IMG/VR virus record: IMGVR_UViG_3300030107_004197
Coordinates: 1-21,743 of that record
Length of the DNA stretch: 21,743 bases
Origin: a virus
Strand: one strand, 5' to 3'
Shown here: in pieces, positions 1 through 20,380 of the stretch
How the letters are laid out: every line of letters begins with the position of its first letter
Numbering within the stretch: the stretch's first letter is position 1
The notes under the pieces: generated by a model
Database searches by the model: none
The model's input: the letters and a program-made list of their open reading frames with translations, nothing else
What the model was told of the DNA's origin: nothing
Translations under genes and position numbers: made by a program

Positions 1-179
1 AGGTAGCAATTCTTTTACCTGTAATAAGAGCAGGGTCAAATGATGTATCAGAAAAAGACGTAGGTGAAATGGTATATCAGGCAGGAATAGCCGACACCCT
101 AAAAGCTATTGGAGATGTAGTTACTATTGTTATGTCAGCAGGACAAGATGAGGGAAACGTACAAGAGGTGGTGGAGTAA
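1..179 (+). CDS. Tail assembly chaperone, upstream (G-like) frame, 5'-truncated
   Basis: The window opens inside this gene. Codons run from position 3 to a TAA at 177-179 and give the last 58 residues of a small protein ending in an acidic tail (DEGNVQEVVE). It lies directly before a TAC-type ORF and the tape measure gene, the place held by lambda G and the GTA gp10-type tail chaperone, which guide tail tube assembly around the tape measure. A GGGAAAC heptamer near its end is in the right register for -1 slippage into the next ORF. The assignment rests mainly on gene order and the frameshift arrangement, because the N-terminal part is outside the window. It could instead be the end of another small tail-completion protein. 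Confidence 0.6.
   Translation, partial: VAILLPVIRAGSNDVSEKDVGEMVYQAGIADTLKAIGDVVTIVMSAGQDEGNVQEVVE
152..158 (+). other. Programmed -1 frameshift site, G GGA AAC
   Basis: The heptamer GGGAAAC is split G GGA AAC in the frame of the upstream chaperone, the X XXY YYZ register needed for -1 slippage. Lambda G-T uses GGGAAAG. The downstream ORF is exactly in the -1 frame, is open from just after a TGA at 149-151, and has no ATG, GTG or TTG before residues of the conserved domain. A weak Shine-Dalgarno-like AGGA lies at 140-143, slightly upstream. The fused product would continue from GGA-AAC into CGT at 158. Confidence 0.8.
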
Positions 180-379
180 AAATAGACAGATTCCCCTATG
201 ACGAATGGATTAAAACAGTTGTAGGAAAAATGGGGTTTACCCCAGACATATTCTGGCAAATGAGTTTTGAGGAACTATATTTAGCTATAGAGGGATTTGC
301 AGAGTTTCATTCTGGTGGTAAGCCACCACCACTCACAAAGGATGAACTAAATGAATTGATGGAGTTGTACCCAGACTAA
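158..379 (+). CDS. Tail assembly chaperone, downstream (T-like) frame, TAC family
   Basis: This reading frame encodes a stretch with the hallmarks of short phage tail assembly chaperones of the GTA type (phage_TAC): a conserved Trp within FTPDIFWQMSFEEL, followed by a basic and proline-rich GGKPPPLTKDEL segment and a C-terminal ELMELYPD. The frame has no usable start codon. Between the in-frame TGA at 149 and the conserved Trp the only near-start is ATA at 182. It is therefore best read as the C-terminal half of a frameshift fusion with the preceding ORF, as with lambda gpGT, where only a small fraction of ribosomes make the long form that recruits the tape measure. The TAA overlaps the tape measure ATG as TAATG, which suggests translational coupling. 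Confidence 0.75.
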   Translation, partial: RTRGGGVKIDRFPYDEWIKTVVGKMGFTPDIFWQMSFEELYLAIEGFAEFHSGGKPPPLTKDELNELMELYPD

Positions 380-11706: not shown

Positions 11707-13380
11707 ATGGATAAATTAAGAGAAGCAGGAATAAAACTTAGAAGTTATAGAGTTGGCGACCATAAAACAACTTGCCCACAGTGTAGTAACACCAGAACAA
11801 ATAAAACAGACCCATGTTTATCTGTAAAAGTAGGAATAGATAGTGGTTTATGGAATTGTCATCATTGTGGGTTCAAAGGGGGTTATGGGGAAGATAAGCC
11901 TGTAAGAACGATTATCAGACCACAAAATCCTATTAGAAAAAATCCAGATGATAATATCTATGAATATTTTCAGCAAAGAGGGATAAGTAAAAAGACTGTA
12001 GATGATTTTGGTATATTTAAATCGGAATATAGTTTTGGACAAGGTAAAGAGGGTTGTATTGCTTTCCCATATTACAAAGAGGGCGAGTTGGTAAACGTCA
12101 AATATCGCACCAGAGATAAAAAGTTCAGACAAGAAAAAGATTCCGAAAGAACTCTTTATAACATGGATAGGGCGTATGAAGCATTTAAGGAATCCAAGAC
12201 AATTATTTTTGTTGAAGGTGAGATGGATGTTTTGAGTTTTTATGAAGCAGGGTTTTCTAATGTAGTATCTTTACCAGATGGTGCAACTAAAACTCCGAAA
12301 TATGACGATAACGATAAAAGGTTTCAAGCCTTGCGTTCATGCAGTTGGCTCAATGATGCTGAGAAAGTTATTTTGGCAGTTGATAATGACGAAGCAGGAG
12401 AGGGCTTAAAACTAGAATTAATACATAGGTTTGGAAAAGATAGGACTTGGTTGGTTGCACATCAGCATGGTTACAAAGACGCAAATGAATTGCTAGTTGG
12501 GATAGGTGTTAAGGCATTAGAGTTGTGGGTAGAGTTAGCAGACCCACATCCCATTGATGGGTTATATTCGGTTACGGATTATCAGAAAGAAGTTTTACAG
12601 ATATATAGAGAGGAAACCAAAAAGACATTTTCCACAGGGTTTTTAAAACTCGACTCATTATATACTGTGATGCCTTCAACTTTTACAGTTGTAACAGGAG
12701 TACCAAACCATGGTAAGTCAAACTTTTTAGACCATGTTATTGTGAATATGGCGAAAAAACATAATTGGAAATTTGCAATATTTTCTCCAGAACATTCAAC
12801 AGCAATGCACATTAGGAGACTTGCAGAGAAGGTTGTAGGTCAGCCATTCGACAGAGGTGTTACTGAAAGAATGTCGGAAGATACATTGACCCAAACACTA
12901 AAGTTTTTAAACGACCATTTTTTCTTCATTGAAAGTGACGATACAGTACCTGATATTGATTGGATATTACATAAAGTAAAAGCCGCTTGTTTGAGGCATG
13001 GGGTTCAAGGGGTAGTGATAGACCCATACAATGAAATATCCTCAAGTAGAGAAAACAATAAGCGAGAAGATGAGCATATTAGGGATTTAATTAGTAAGTG
13101 TAAGAAATTTACTAGGTCACATGAACTGGCAATGTGGATGGTTGCCCACCCTGCTAAGATGCAAAGAAATCAAGATGGAATAATACCACCGCCCACACTT
13201 TACGATATAAGTGGTGCGGCACACTGGAATAATATGTGTGACGTTGGGTTAGTAGTTCACAGGGATTTTGAAACACACCAGACTAGAGTAATTACGAGAA
13301 AGGTGAGGGAGCAGGGGTTATATGGTTCAATAGGAGAAGTGTACTTTGATTATAATCTCAGCACTCATTTATATGAGTAG
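11707..13380 (+). CDS. Bifunctional DNA primase-helicase, T7 gp4-like
   Basis: A 557-residue protein with the T7 gp4 domain order. The zinc-binding domain has C23-x2-C26 and C51-x2-C54. The TOPRIM primase core has IIFVEGEMDVLSF (catalytic Glu170), then VSLPDGA and VILAVDNDEAG (Asp226, Asp228). A RecA-like helicase begins near residue 305 with Walker A GVPNHGKS (331-338), Walker B GVVIDPYNE (Asp439) and an AMWMVAHPAK segment. All expected catalytic residues are visible, so priming and unwinding should both be active. It forms an operon with the initiator. No separate DNA polymerase is seen, so host polymerase or a gene outside the window would serve. Confidence 0.93.
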   Translation: MDKLREAGIKLRSYRVGDHKTTCPQCSNTRTNKTDPCLSVKVGIDSGLWNCHHCGFKGGYGEDKPVRTIIRPQNPIRKNPDDNIYEYFQQRGISKKTVDDFGIFKSEYSFGQGKEGCIAFPYYKEGELVNVKYRTRDKKFRQEKDSERTLYNMDRAYEAFKESKTIIFVEGEMDVLSFYEAGFSNVVSLPDGATKTPKYDDNDKRFQALRSCSWLNDAEKVILAVDNDEAGEGLKLELIHRFGKDRTWLVAHQHGYKDANELLVGIGVKALELWVELADPHPIDGLYSVTDYQKEVLQIYREETKKTFSTGFLKLDSLYTVMPSTFTVVTGVPNHGKSNFLDHVIVNMAKKHNWKFAIFSPEHSTAMHIRRLAEKVVGQPFDRGVTERMSEDTLTQTLKFLNDHFFFIESDDTVPDIDWILHKVKAACLRHGVQGVVIDPYNEISSSRENNKREDEHIRDLISKCKKFTRSHELAMWMVAHPAKMQRNQDGIIPPPTLYDISGAAHWNNMCDVGLVVHRDFETHQTRVITRKVREQGLYGSIGEVYFDYNLSTHLYE

Positions 13381-13540: not shown

Positions 13541-14785
13541 ATGGAAATTGAAAAAGTTAAGACAGATGTTTTAATTCCCTATGTTCGAAATGCAAGAACG
13601 CATAGTGACGAACAGGTGGCACAGATATGTGGTTCTATTAAGGAATTTGGATTTACAAATCCTGTATTGATTGATTCAGAAAAAGTAATCATAGCAGGTC
13701 ATGGTAGAGTTATGGCGGCTCAACGTATGGGGCTAAGTGAAGTTCCATGTATTACATTAGATTATCTAACAGAAGCACAAAAGAAAGCATACATAATAGC
13801 TGACAACCAATTAGCATTAAACGCAGGTTGGAACGAAGAACTGTTAGCACTTGAGATAGAAGAACTTAATGACTTAGATTTTAATTTAGACCTGTTGGGA
13901 TTTGATGACCCACTTAAATTTCTCCCAGATAAAGAGGGGCATACTGATGAAGATGAAGTTCCTGATGTACCAGATAATCCTGTAACTAAGGAGGGGGACT
14001 TGTGGGTATTAGGTAATCACAAAATACTGTGTGGTGACAGTACAAGTGAGAAGGTGCTTTCAATATTAATGCAAGGCAAGAAAGCAGATTTAGTATTTAC
14101 AGACCCCCCATACAATGCTGATTACAAGTCTAGAGGAGCAGATGAACTTTTAAAAAAGGGCATAAAAAATGATAATATGTCAGATGATGAGTTTCAAAAC
14201 TTTATTGAAAAGGTGTTTTGTGCAATTAAACAAAATATTTATAAAGGAAGTTCTATGTATGTCTGTTGTAATTGGAAAGATTCTTATCCAAGATTTTATT
14301 TTATTGCAAAAGAAAATGATGTAAACGTGTCGAACTGTATTGTGTGGAACAAAGAAAGTGCAGGTATGGGATGGCAAGATTACAGGTATCAGTTTGAATT
14401 TATACTTTATGGTTTTGAAAATAGTAAAACACATAACTTTTATGGTGACAGAACAAATACAGACCTTTGGTCACTGAAAAGAGAAGCAAGACAAAAATAT
14501 GTGCATCCAACGCAAAAACCTGTAGAGCTTATTGAGAAAGCAATAAAGAACTCTAGTTTACCAGAGCATACTGTTCTTGACCTGTTTTTAGGGTCAGGAA
14601 GTACACTAATTGCATCACAAAAAAATAATAGAAAGTGTTTTGGAATTGAGTTAGACCCAAAATATTGTGATGTCATAATAGAGAGATGGCAAAACTACAC
14701 ACAGGAGAAAGCAATACTAGAGTCAAATGGAAAAACCTTTGAAGAATTAAAAAATTCTGTTATGAGTGAAAAAACAACAAAGTGA
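13541..14785 (+). CDS. ParB-like nuclease domain fused to DNA adenine/cytosine-N4 methyltransferase
   Basis: A 414-residue fusion. Residues 1-100 are a ParB/Srx-type N-terminal domain (VRNARTHSDEQVAQICGSIKEFGFTNPVLID, then IAGHGRVMAAQRMG with GHGR at 53-56, and ADNQLALNAGW). From about 150 an amino-methyltransferase follows: LVFTDPPYN with DPPY at 188-191, a target-recognition part, HPTQKP, and the SAM site VLDLFLGSGSTLIA, then CFGIELDPKYCDVIIERW. The DPPY-before-FxGxG order is beta class, like CcrM. No restriction enzyme is adjacent, so it is an orphan that may protect phage DNA or alter promoters. Specificity is unknown; GANTC would be a natural test. It starts after AAAGG next to a structured leader. 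Confidence 0.92.
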   Translation: MEIEKVKTDVLIPYVRNARTHSDEQVAQICGSIKEFGFTNPVLIDSEKVIIAGHGRVMAAQRMGLSEVPCITLDYLTEAQKKAYIIADNQLALNAGWNEELLALEIEELNDLDFNLDLLGFDDPLKFLPDKEGHTDEDEVPDVPDNPVTKEGDLWVLGNHKILCGDSTSEKVLSILMQGKKADLVFTDPPYNADYKSRGADELLKKGIKNDNMSDDEFQNFIEKVFCAIKQNIYKGSSMYVCCNWKDSYPRFYFIAKENDVNVSNCIVWNKESAGMGWQDYRYQFEFILYGFENSKTHNFYGDRTNTDLWSLKREARQKYVHPTQKPVELIEKAIKNSSLPEHTVLDLFLGSGSTLIASQKNNRKCFGIELDPKYCDVIIERWQNYTQEKAILESNGKTFEELKNSVMSEKTTK

Positions 14786-15342: not shown

Positions 15343-16546
15343 ATGGGCGGCTCAAGGTCGAGGAAAACAATTCACTCCACAGGAGGACTTTAATATATGG
15401 CTTATACTTGCAGGGCGAGGTTGGGGTAAAACACGCACAGGGGCAGAAGATGTTATTAAATACGGATTTGAACACCCCAATAGTTTAATAGCCGTTGTAG
15501 CACCTACATTTGGTGATTTGAGAAGGGTTTGCTTTGGTGGTGTAAGTGGTTTGATGAGTATAATACCTGAAGAATGTTTTGCAGAGGGAACGTCAGAGGT
15601 GGGGTACTCAGTAAGCAGGTCGGAGATAATTCTATTTAATGGCTCAAAAATAGTAGGCTTCTCAGCTACAGAACCCAACAGATTAAGGGGGTCACAATTT
15701 CACAGAGCGTGGTGTGATGAATTAGCGGCATGGCAATACCCAGAAACCTTTGACCAGTTGATGTTTGGGTTACGTTTAGGAGAAAACCCACAATGCGTTA
15801 TAACAACTACACCCAGACCAACAAAGATAATTACAGACCTGCTTAAACGTAAAGATGTGCATATAACAACAGGTCATACGTTTGAAAACGAAGCAAATCT
15901 AGCATCATCAGCATTAGAAACCTTAAAAGAAAGGTACGCAAACACACGATTAGGCAGGCAAGAATTATATGCAGAAGTGCTTACGGACATTGAAGGGGCA
16001 TTGTGGTCTTATAAAATGATAGAGGAGCGTAGAATAAAGCGTGAAGAAATGCCTGACCTTGAAAGAATAGTGGTAGCAATAGACCCTGCTGTGACAAATA
16101 CGGAAAACTCAGATGAAACAGGCATAGTTGTATGTGGTCGAAGTGGTAATAAATACTATGTTTTGGAAGATAAATCAGGTAAATATTCTCCTGATGAGTG
16201 GGCAAGGATTGCAATAAGGTTGTTTTATGATACGAATGCTGATAGGATTGTAGCCGAAGTGAACAATGGTGGTGACTTAGTTGAAAGACTAATAAGGACT
16301 GTTGATAGCAAAGTACCCTACACACCTGTTAGGGCTAGTAGGGGCAAGATGATGAGGGCAGAACCTGTTGCGGCTCTTTATGAACAAGAAAGGGTCAGTC
16401 ATATAGGGGTTTTTAGTCAGTTGGAGGAACAGATGTGTTCGTATACTCCAGAAGCAAGAACAAGCCCTGATAGATTGGATGCCTTAGTTTGGGCATTGAC
16501 AGAATTGAGCGATACCAGAGGGTCAGCTTATTGGAGAATTAGTTAA
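15209..16546 (+). CDS. terL: Terminase large subunit, GTA-type packaging ATPase/nuclease
   Basis: This protein of up to 445 residues has the Walker A motif LILAGRGWGKTRTGAE (GRGWGKT at 69-75), Walker B ending AWCDELAAW (Asp170-Glu171), and the coupling VITTTPRPT motif. It also has an RNase H-like nuclease with IVVAIDPAVT (Asp292) and DRLDALVWAL near the end. This is the Terminase_6/GTA-type packaging enzyme. The start is uncertain: ATG at 15209 overlaps the small subunit by 134 bases. A TTG at 15278 is the only later candidate and still leaves 65 bases of overlap. The unusual length of the overlap deserves attention. The end is coupled to the portal by TAATG. Confidence 0.92.
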   Translation: MVNQQRTYILKQLQTQTKYSETLLNFSTKLKESEPKQKALQTCIKWAAQGRGKQFTPQEDFNIWLILAGRGWGKTRTGAEDVIKYGFEHPNSLIAVVAPTFGDLRRVCFGGVSGLMSIIPEECFAEGTSEVGYSVSRSEIILFNGSKIVGFSATEPNRLRGSQFHRAWCDELAAWQYPETFDQLMFGLRLGENPQCVITTTPRPTKIITDLLKRKDVHITTGHTFENEANLASSALETLKERYANTRLGRQELYAEVLTDIEGALWSYKMIEERRIKREEMPDLERIVVAIDPAVTNTENSDETGIVVCGRSGNKYYVLEDKSGKYSPDEWARIAIRLFYDTNADRIVAEVNNGGDLVERLIRTVDSKVPYTPVRASRGKMMRAEPVAALYEQERVSHIGVFSQLEEQMCSYTPEARTSPDRLDALVWALTELSDTRGSAYWRIS

Positions 16547-18684
16547 TGCCAACATTTAGAGAACGTATAACAAACCTTTTTACACGAACAATACAAACAA
16601 AACAGTATCCACAAGTAATGATGAACGTCACAGGCTCATCATATTACAGACGAGATAACTATGAGAGTTATGCTGAAGAAGGATATAGACAAAACGCAAT
16701 AGTTTATAGATGTGTCAATGAAATAGCTAATGGTGCGGCATCTATACCATTTAAAGCATTTCAAGGGGATATAGAGTTAGATGACCACCCAATATTAGGG
16801 CTATTACGCAGACCTAACCCAATGCAGGAGGGGGTAGAGTTCTTTCAAGCCCTTTATTCTTTTCTTTTACTCTCAGGCAACGCATATCCTATACGAAATG
16901 ATATCAATGGACAGCCAAGAGAGTTGTTTTTATTACGACCAGATAGAATTAGAATACAGCCGAGCAAGACATTAATTCCCAAAAGCTACGAATATATGGT
17001 GCAGGGAACAGTTGTCAGGACTTATGACCCAGACCCAATTACAGGTCAAAGCGATTTAAAACATATAAAACTATGGAATCCGTTAGATGATTACTATGGA
17101 TTAAGCCCAATTATGGCAGGGGCAGTAGATATTGACAACCACAACGCAGTCAACAAGCACAATCTTAACCTGTTAAATAATGGGGCTAGGCCATCAGGGG
17201 CGATTATATTTAAGCCTAAAGATGATAGAGGTGTAGCTATGCAATTGACGGATGGTCAAAGGCAATCACTTAATGAGGATTTACAATTACGATACTCAAG
17301 CCCACAAAACTCAGGCCGACCCATGTTGTTGGAAGGTGATTTTGATTGGCGAGAGATGGGGTTAAGCCCTAAAGATATGGATTATTTACAGAGTAAGCAT
17401 GTTGCGGCTAAAGACATTGCTCTCTGTTTCGGTGTTCCTAGTCAATTGATAGGCATTCCAGATGCCCAGACATATTCCAATGTGCAGGAAGCAAGATTGG
17501 CTCTATATGAAGAAACAATTATCCCCCTTGCAAAACGTATAGAGAGCGATATGAACGAATGGATTAGCCCATCATTTGGCGAGGACATAAATATTAAATA
17601 CGATTTTGAAGCAATCCCTGCAATGACGGAACGTAGAAAAATGATATATGAGAATGTAACACAAGCCGTTAGGGAGGGCATTATTAGTAGAAATGAGGCT
17701 AGAGAAAGATTAGGACTAGAGCCTATTAGTGGTGGTGATGATGTATTTATAGCGGCTAACCTTTTCCCATTAGGCTCAACAGAAATAGCACCTGCGGAAG
17801 GAGAGGAGGCAGAAGATGATGGCAAAGATGCGTATGATTTTGACGAATTTAAAGAAGAAATTGAAAAAGATGTTTTCTCGACAGAAGCAGAAGCAGAAGC
17901 GAGAGCAAACCAAATAGGTTGTATAGGCACACATAGTCATAACACAGAGCAAGGTATTGTATATATGCCCTGTGAAAGCCATGAAGATTATGAAAGGTTA
18001 ACAACTGGAGAAGATGAAACGTCAAAAGCAGAAGCAGACGTTGATACAACACCCACAGATGGAATGGCAGAAGAAGCCAAAAGGGGGTTACTTTGGCGAA
18101 AAGAGTTTAACAGGGGTGGAACAGCCGTAGGTGTAGCAAGAGCAAACCAATTAGTAGCAAAAGAGTCACTTTCTCCAAAAACAGTAAGAAGGATGCACAG
18201 TTTTTTCTCCAGACATGAAGTAGATAAACGAGCCGAAGGGTTTAGACAGGGCGAAAAGGGGTATCCATCAGCAGGAAGAATAGCTTGGGCTTTATGGGGT
18301 GGAGATGCAGGACAAACATGGTCAAGACGGAAAACAGCAAGACTCGACAAAGAAAGAGAAAAAAGTTTTAACGATAGCAAGGCAGAAGTATCTGAAAAGA
18401 TTAAAAAGGCTATTAAGAATAAAGTGGAAGAACACAATGAGAAACATGGAGATAAAAAAGGAAAAAAAGTAACACAAGGAATGTTAGAAGCAGTTTTTCG
18501 GAGGGGTGTAGGGGCTTATAACACTAACCCACAGAGTGTTAGACCTAGCGTTACATCTCCAGACCAGTGGGCATTAGCTAGAATAAATGCTTTTTTATAC
18601 GCAGTACGCAACGGAAGATTCCGAAGTGGTCAATTTGATAAGGATTTATTACCAGAAGGTCATCCACTTAAAAGCAAAAAGTAA
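16546..18684 (+). CDS. Portal protein with three extra C-terminal modules
   Basis: A 712-residue protein, far longer than typical HK97-family portals of about 400-430 residues. Residues 1-425 are the portal: YRCVNEIANGAASIPF, HPILGLLRRPNP, LSGNAYPIR, FGVPSQLIGIPD, and a C-terminal YENVTQAVREGIISRNEARERLGLEP. Then come an acidic linker and three modules: A (about 441-500) with CIGTHSH and YMPCESHEDYERL; B (about 503-600) with AKRGLLWRKEFNRGGTAVGVARA, RRMHSFFSRHEVDK and GRIAWALWGGDAG; C (about 640-712) with FRRGVGAYNTNP, DQWALARINAFLYAV and a basic end. As I recall these occur as separate pieces in other marine phages. It forms the portal ring for packaging. Confidence 0.9.
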   Translation: MPTFRERITNLFTRTIQTKQYPQVMMNVTGSSYYRRDNYESYAEEGYRQNAIVYRCVNEIANGAASIPFKAFQGDIELDDHPILGLLRRPNPMQEGVEFFQALYSFLLLSGNAYPIRNDINGQPRELFLLRPDRIRIQPSKTLIPKSYEYMVQGTVVRTYDPDPITGQSDLKHIKLWNPLDDYYGLSPIMAGAVDIDNHNAVNKHNLNLLNNGARPSGAIIFKPKDDRGVAMQLTDGQRQSLNEDLQLRYSSPQNSGRPMLLEGDFDWREMGLSPKDMDYLQSKHVAAKDIALCFGVPSQLIGIPDAQTYSNVQEARLALYEETIIPLAKRIESDMNEWISPSFGEDINIKYDFEAIPAMTERRKMIYENVTQAVREGIISRNEARERLGLEPISGGDDVFIAANLFPLGSTEIAPAEGEEAEDDGKDAYDFDEFKEEIEKDVFSTEAEAEARANQIGCIGTHSHNTEQGIVYMPCESHEDYERLTTGEDETSKAEADVDTTPTDGMAEEAKRGLLWRKEFNRGGTAVGVARANQLVAKESLSPKTVRRMHSFFSRHEVDKRAEGFRQGEKGYPSAGRIAWALWGGDAGQTWSRRKTARLDKEREKSFNDSKAEVSEKIKKAIKNKVEEHNEKHGDKKGKKVTQGMLEAVFRRGVGAYNTNPQSVRPSVTSPDQWALARINAFLYAVRNGRFRSGQFDKDLLPEGHPLKSKK

Positions 18685-18687
18685 CTA

Positions 18688-18879
18688 TTGAATATCTGTC
18701 CTGTGTGTAGGCACAATATGAAAGTAGTTGATAACAAGTTGAGGTGTATGTTTTGTGAGGAGTTTTATTGTTATGATATGTCAAAAGAATGGTTGGATTA
18801 TATAGCAAACAAATCACATGGCACAACTACAGTACAAACAGAACCGAATAAGAATAGCCGCAAGAAAAGAACTCCTTGA
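18688..18879 (+). CDS. Small zinc-ribbon protein
   Basis: A 63-residue protein with a zinc ribbon: CPVC at residues 4-7 and CMFC at about 20-23, followed by an aromatic stretch EEFYCYDMSKEWLDYIA and a basic tail ending SRKKRTP. The start is the TTG at 18688, three bases after the portal stop, because the next ATG would remove the first CxxC pair. The gene overlaps the MuF gene by 62 bases. Small zinc ribbons near head genes are of unknown role and could bind DNA or a head protein. Confidence 0.6.
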   Translation: MNICPVCRHNMKVVDNKLRCMFCEEFYCYDMSKEWLDYIANKSHGTTTVQTEPNKNSRKKRTP

Positions 18880-20380
18880 GCAGAATAGATTGCGTAATGG
18901 GTTTGAAAGGAAGCTAGTAAGACAGCTTCAGAGCGGATTTAAAGCCACAGGAAGGCTTGCAAGGGAAGAATACGAGCAATTGGGTAGGCTCGTTGAAACA
19001 AGCCGTCAAAGCGAAAGAAAACTGCGTGACGTATTAGAGTCGCATTATAGGGCAGTTATAGATGCCTTTGGAACTAGAGTGCTTAGAAATCGCAAGCAGG
19101 ACTCACAGTTTGAAATACTGATTAGAGAATATATGAATACTGTGGGTGGTACACGCATCACCCAGATAAACAACACAACAATGAAAGCCATAAATAAGGT
19201 TATATCAAAAGGTGCTGTCGAAGGGTTAGGGGTACAAGCCATAGGCAAAAACATCTTTGACAAGATGGATGGTTCATTTAGTAAATTACGAAGCCAAACA
19301 ATATCAAGAACGGAAACCCATAGTGCGGCTAGTTACTCAAACGATAGGGTCAACGCATCTTTAGGCATACCAAACCAGATAAAAAGGTGGGTATCGGTAG
19401 CAGATGCAAGAACTAGGTCATGGCACGTTGCCCTAAATGGAACAGAGGTGGGTAAAGATGAACCTTTCACAGTTACAGTAAAGGGTATCAGCTATAAAAT
19501 GGATTATACAGGTGACCCAAAAGGGGGAGCAGTAAACACAATAAACTGTAGATGTGTTACCCTATACCTAGACCCAGATGATGTGATAGTTGACCAACCA
19601 GAAACAATAGTAGAAAAACCTGTTAAACCTGTAGAGCCACCAAAAGCACCAAATGTTTCTATAAGTTTGTTAATAAAAACAGGGTCAGAAAAGGTAAGAG
19701 AGGAATATGATTTGGAATTTAATTCACAACTTACTGACCAACAGAAAAGGATTGTAGCAAAATATAATAAACCATCTGTAATAGTAATAAATAAAGATGG
19801 ATACTATCAATCATGGGATAAAGAAATGTCAGCAAGACCAAATCAAAAAAACGGAAAAACAAAATCGTTTGTTATATCACATGAATATGGGCATCATATT
19901 GATTATGAGACAAGTGGTAGAACTTTAGCATGGTCAGAAACAAATGAGGAGTTTCGCAATGCAATAGACAAAGATAGAAGAAATTTTAAAGGAAAAAATA
20001 TTAAGGATAAATATTATATAGATAAAAAAGAGTTTAGCGTTTTATTTGCTAAAATTGGCAAATTAGAAAAAAAAGAAATTAAAAGCAGTAGGACAGGTAA
20101 TGTGCTTTCTACATATGAAACTGTTGAGCCACTTGATGATGGTTTTGCAAACGTAAGTGACATCATAGATGCTTTAGCAAGAGGAAAGTTTCAAAGACCG
20201 TTCCAGACTTTTGGACATGGCGAGAGATATTACAAAAGATTTGGTGCTATAGAAAAAGAAATTTTCGCTAACCTGTTTTCCTTGAAGCATAACTCAAAAG
20301 CCTATGCACTAGCAAAAACCATTGTGCCAAATACTGTAAAAGAATTTGAAAAAAGATTAGACGAACTTGAGAGGAATTAG
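18818..20380 (+). CDS. MuF-type head morphogenesis protein fused to a HEXXH metallopeptidase-like domain
   Basis: A 520-residue protein of two halves. Residues 1-255 are the minor head protein of the SPP1 gp7/Mu F family: a helical N-terminus, TISRTETHSAASYSNDR (160-176), KRWVSVADARTRSWHVALNG (189-208), and a closing NTINCRCV with NCRC at 243-246. A Pro/Val/Lys-rich linker (258-279) follows. The rest contains a zincin-like motif SHEYGHHIDYE (His355-Glu356-x-x-His359) and, later, EIFANLF around Glu481, a plausible third zinc ligand. MuF proteins enter the head, and fused toxin-like domains are known in temperate phages. This may therefore be a delivered peptidase or a head maturation factor. 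The fusion is clear; the target is unknown. Confidence 0.85.
   Translation: MAQLQYKQNRIRIAARKELLEQNRLRNGFERKLVRQLQSGFKATGRLAREEYEQLGRLVETSRQSERKLRDVLESHYRAVIDAFGTRVLRNRKQDSQFEILIREYMNTVGGTRITQINNTTMKAINKVISKGAVEGLGVQAIGKNIFDKMDGSFSKLRSQTISRTETHSAASYSNDRVNASLGIPNQIKRWVSVADARTRSWHVALNGTEVGKDEPFTVTVKGISYKMDYTGDPKGGAVNTINCRCVTLYLDPDDVIVDQPETIVEKPVKPVEPPKAPNVSISLLIKTGSEKVREEYDLEFNSQLTDQQKRIVAKYNKPSVIVINKDGYYQSWDKEMSARPNQKNGKTKSFVISHEYGHHIDYETSGRTLAWSETNEEFRNAIDKDRRNFKGKNIKDKYYIDKKEFSVLFAKIGKLEKKEIKSSRTGNVLSTYETVEPLDDGFANVSDIIDALARGKFQRPFQTFGHGERYYKRFGAIEKEIFANLFSLKHNSKAYALAKTIVPNTVKEFEKRLDELERN

Follow-up and report, generated by a model that had tools for sequence, protein, structure and literature searches.

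The gp10 and TAC reading frames of a marine phage fragment very probably form a single recoded pair, in which a −1 frameshift of the lambda G/GT type would yield a minor gp10–TAC fusion. The fragment is an IMG/VR virus record, and the whole stretch analysed here, 21,743 nucleotides in length, is referred to as the window.

Overlapping frames and a slippery heptamer

The window opens inside the upstream chaperone gene (GTA-gp10, PF11836). The 3′ part of this gene is read in the zero frame from position 3 of the plus strand to a TAA stop at 177–179; the window does not include its 5′ part. The heptamer GGGAAAC (152–158) is spanned by the zero-frame codons GAG-GGA-AAC and is read directly as G_GGA_AAC, with 18 nt between its end and the stop codon. 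On the same strand, the −1 frame is open from a TGA just upstream of the slip site (149–151) to a TAA at 377–379. It encodes a linker, RTRGGGVK (158–181), followed by a tail assembly chaperone (TAC) domain (PF09550, Phage_TAC_6; 182–379). The first ATG, GTG or TTG of this frame from position 152 on is the ATG at 230, which is located inside the TAC domain; the only near-start codons ahead of it are ATA 182 and ATT 209. The first-pass annotation of this DNA had described an in-register heptamer close to the upstream stop and a −1 frame lacking a start before the TAC domain, and both descriptions hold.

Contig L002 is identical to the window over the TAC and tape-measure proteins and contains the upstream gene in full (995–1336, 113 amino acids; PF11836, E = 5.6e-9). 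The −1 ORF matches PF09550 (E = 1.7e-8). Both matches exceed the curated cut-offs, and Pfam scans of the gp10 and TAC ORFs returned these two families only, in agreement with the earlier description of a GTA-type tail chaperone pair. The cut-off of TIGR02216, the rcc01693 equivalog, was missed (29.7 versus 56.1 bits). Phrog_7493 was considered as a known fused family and rejected: its match covers the TAC half only and gives no evidence for a known fusion. A profile search of the genome contigs with the TAC alignment found no relative.

The overlapping ORFs sit between the tail tube and tape measure genes. The full order is tail tube (PF06199, taken from L002), a small ORF, gp10/TAC, tape measure protein (379–2073, with its ATG at 379 overlapping the TAC stop) and distal tail protein (2076–2708; phrog_1302, E = 2.6e-34). 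This arrangement comes close to that of g9–g12 in the RcGTA cluster. The gp10 protein as modelled by AlphaFold (pLDDT 82) has a fold like that of predicted tail assembly chaperones in BFVD, and a fold search of the PDB found no solved structure resembling it. The pair had initially been described as repeating the lambda G/GT layout in an unrelated-looking pair of chaperones; the layout stands, and the label 'unrelated-looking' does so only in part, given the likeness of the gp10 model to predicted tail chaperones.

Codon-level conservation in viral relatives

A search with the TAC protein gave 80 viral loci, 78 of which extend to the junction and could be scored. All 78 keep an in-register slip site: GGGAAAC in 62, GGGAAAG in two and nine consecutive A in 14. 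Related phages lacking a slippery site, named beforehand as evidence that would speak against frameshifting, did not appear among them. These relatives are diverse, with 35 distinct below 90% nucleotide identity and gp10 proteins down to 28% identity. Conservation at the codon level was assessed in 33 distinct phages using codon-anchored columns, since the heptamer came out misaligned when the nucleotides of the relatives were aligned freely. Of the 23 gp10 columns in which an amino acid with degenerate codons is conserved, the GGA (32/32) and AAC (31/31) of the heptamer are the only codon-invariant ones, and the top-codon fractions of the remaining 21 columns range from 0.24 to 0.93. Elsewhere in the same genes, GGA makes up 17% of the glycine codons and AAC 26% of the asparagine codons. 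Because other sites of the same genes serve as the control, shared ancestry alone is insufficient to account for this invariance.

The −1 frame between the site and the TAC domain is conserved as Arg-x-x-Gly-Gly (Gly-Gly in 33/33, Arg in 32/33), as expected if that stretch is translated. No start codon in the TAC frame is consistent among the relatives. The proposal of a programmed −1 frameshift, made originally from the window by itself, is strongly supported by sequence comparison, the heptamer being codon-conserved in 33 distinct phages and recurring in remote ones.

The remote phages comprise five records with an in-register GGGAAAN and a TAC domain in the −1 frame: a Rhizobium phage, a Desulfofustis phage and two spring-water genomes, all annotated, and one unannotated fecal phage. 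In all four annotated records, gp10 and TAC are given as two separate genes. In both Rhizobium phage RHph_Y3_1 and Desulfofustis phage LS06-2018-MD02, an in-register GGGAAAC ends the gp10-type gene; their sequence identity to the window is low.

One clade of viral relatives (L065–L071 and L073–L079) has CGAAAAAAAAAGTCC in place of GGGAAAC at the gp10/TAC junction, with A_AAA_AAA in register. On this nine-A run, slippage of RNA polymerase is also possible.

Alternative routes to the TAC domain

TAC might instead be a separate protein, initiated at a rare start codon (ATA 182 or ATT 209) and coupled to the gp10 stop. A GGAG at 173–176, 5 nt before ATA 182, could act as its ribosome-binding site, and ATGA/GTGA overlaps are in use at related GTA-type loci. 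In the relatives, however, the position of ATA 182, which had been named beforehand as a start that would speak against frameshifting, is not a conserved start: it is occupied by varied non-start codons (for example GTA, TTA, CTA and GCA), and in many of them the zero-frame stop overlaps it. A rare start also leaves the codon-invariant GGA-AAC and the conserved −1 linker upstream unexplained, and we consider it very unlikely. Initiation at the internal ATG 230, giving a shortened independent protein, is more improbable still. This codon is in frame, and an ATG is common there among the relatives, but its use would cost the TAC domain its first helix along with P5 and G15, both conserved, and would account for neither the heptamer nor the linker.

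A change of frame by transcriptional rather than ribosomal slippage is just as improbable and was rejected for the window. RNA polymerases can slip on runs such as the nine A found in clade L065–L079, whereas the longest homopolymer in GGGAAAC is three and the conserved feature is the register of the tandem codons. Least probable of all is a fortuitous heptamer next to a second ORF that has lost its start. An in-register XXXYYYZ (Y being A or T) occurs in the last 35 nt of about 3.5% (10/289) of the ORFs of at least 80 amino acids in the same sequences, outside the gp10/TAC pair; conservation in all 78 scorable relatives and invariance at the codon level contradict an origin by chance.

Proposed frameshift mechanism

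In the proposed −1 frameshift, most ribosomes would terminate at TAA 177 and release a short, G-like gp10 chaperone. A minority would move back by a single base at G_GGA_AAC, where the tRNAs paired with GGA and AAC would pair anew with GGG and AAA. These ribosomes would go on to translate the short Arg/Gly linker and the TAC domain, giving a less abundant, GT-like gp10–TAC fusion of about 180 amino acids that contains the junction DEGN-RTRGGG. If lambda is a guide, both forms would bind the product of the tape measure gene that follows directly, the TAC part would recruit tail tube subunits, and the ratio of the two forms would matter for assembly. We infer slippage in vivo, a slippage rate that leaves the fusion in the minority and a division of labour between the two products. 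The fusion appears not to be obligatory across the family, because some distant GTA loci express the pair by a start–stop overlap and have no slip site.

No downstream stimulatory RNA structure was found, the single-sequence folds averaging a z-score of −0.10. A consensus fold was tried as a stimulator and rejected: its energy is −0.7 kcal/mol, and only a few base pairs account for its z-score against column shuffles (−3.75). The region upstream of the site is purine-rich, and a search for a Shine–Dalgarno-like stimulator in it found no element conserved at a fixed place. In E. coli, which may not be the host of the window phage, AAC in the A site is less shifty than AAG.

Relation to known recoded chaperones

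The lambda G/GT tail assembly chaperones were reportedly described by Xu, Hendrix and Duda. In lambda as in the window, two ORFs overlap directly ahead of the tape measure gene, an in-register XXXYYYZ with a GGGAAA core stands near the end of the first ORF, and the second lies in the −1 frame and lacks a start. The window differs from lambda in its Pfam families (PF11836/PF09550) and in its site, GGGAAAC rather than GGGAAAG. In lambda, about 30 gpG are made per gpGT; the tape measure protein is bound through the G part and the tail tube protein through the T part (PMC5009743). Lambda-like phages rely on the same class of site for g-t, as does the haloarchaeal virus HCTV-1, whose shift site, G_GGA_AAC, is identical to that of the window (PMC5009743); the likeness to this archaeal virus lies in the shift site of its tail-chaperone pair. 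Reporter tests of HK97-like chaperone genes gave 6–7% (PMC3711429).

RcGTA g10/g10.1 resembles the window in its families (PF11836 and rcc01693/PF09550), in their order and in their place between the tail tube and tape measure genes. Unlike RcGTA, the window, which belongs to a virus record, has replication genes of its own, among them those for a primase-helicase and a Sak-type annealing protein; it does not match a domesticated cluster without replication functions. RcGTA g10 has been named a tail chaperone with no mention of a frameshift (PMC11409702), and a further RcGTA paper mentions neither the g10 tail chaperone nor a frameshift (PMC7296036). One passage of a third paper states that Rhodobacter capsulatus phages usually show a tail chaperone frameshift, and that passage does not name the PF11836 and PF09550 families (PMC8601537). 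We found no report of frameshifting for the PF11836/PF09550 gene pair in the open-access literature. The recoding class of lambda G/GT is already known, and the PF11836/PF09550 pair is, in all likelihood, a new addition to it. Lambda-type recoding would thereby extend to a pair that public records annotate as two genes, so that its fusion product would go unnoticed in phages and perhaps also in gene transfer agents.

Gene transfer agent-type loci

PF11836 searches of alphaproteobacterial genomes gave 117 non-redundant loci with a downstream TAC; these are GTA-type and may include prophages. One of them (L091) has the make-up of a GTA-type cluster, with tail tube, gp10, TAC and DUF2460 genes, and shows the gene order described above for the phage. 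As in the window, TAC lies mostly in the −1 frame, with only 13 of the 117 loci departing from this. Within the last 60 nt of gp10, XXXYYYZ occurs in register 80 times and in the other registers seven and five times. AAACCCT is found 20 times at gp10 ends, always in register, and CCCTTTC is partly dictated by a PFPW protein motif where that motif falls in the overlap.

Many of these loci differ from the window in having a start–stop overlap or heptamers other than GGGAAAC. Across L091–L222, the 3′ end of gp10 has two main, mutually exclusive layouts: an in-register AAACCCT, CCCTTTC, GGGAAAG/C or CCCTTTG without a TAC start, and an ATGA/GTGA start–stop overlap without a heptamer. A heptamer without a start was counted in 44 loci, both in 10, a start without a heptamer in 38 and neither in seven; a TGA stop readily supplies a −1 start. 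Heptamer and start classes are associated at a Fisher p of 2.6e-11, uncorrected for kinship. Leaving out the loci with PFPW in the overlap changes the four classes to 22, 10, 38 and 1 (p = 1e-9, likewise uncorrected). A test on independent pairs for slip site versus start yielded only six supported pairs; the start is opposite in about two and does not differ in about four.

Slip sites in other letters apparently recur in many bacterial gene transfer agents. We lean slightly towards the view that GTAs make a gp10–gp10.1 fusion by −1 frameshifting at the unusual heptamers A_AAC_CCU and C_CCU_UUC as well as at G_GGA_AAG/C, and that several lineages have swapped to an ATGA/GTGA overlap, the two being exchangeable solutions across the alphaproteobacteria. 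As a pattern read from sequence, the extension of frameshifting to GTAs is a strong lead, and it is the part that a specialist might not expect. With slip-site and start-overlap versions both occurring naturally, GTA-type loci allow a direct test of whether a fused chaperone is needed at a fixed ratio.

Other genes in the window

The primase-helicase (11707–13380) has its closest match in the genome collection, at 43% identity, in Aurantimonas endophytica, and the corresponding region there also holds a gp10/TAC-like pair (L089, L093). This match hints at an alphaproteobacterial host for the window phage. A DNA methyltransferase (N6_N4_Mtase; 13541–14785) with an N-terminal ParB-like domain lies just before the terminase genes. 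The portal protein (16546–18684) has a long C-terminal extension (DUF3721, with a weak DUF5824 match), and the Phage_Mu_F-type head morphogenesis protein (18818–20380) carries a C-terminal HEYGHH motif as found in zinc metallopeptidases.
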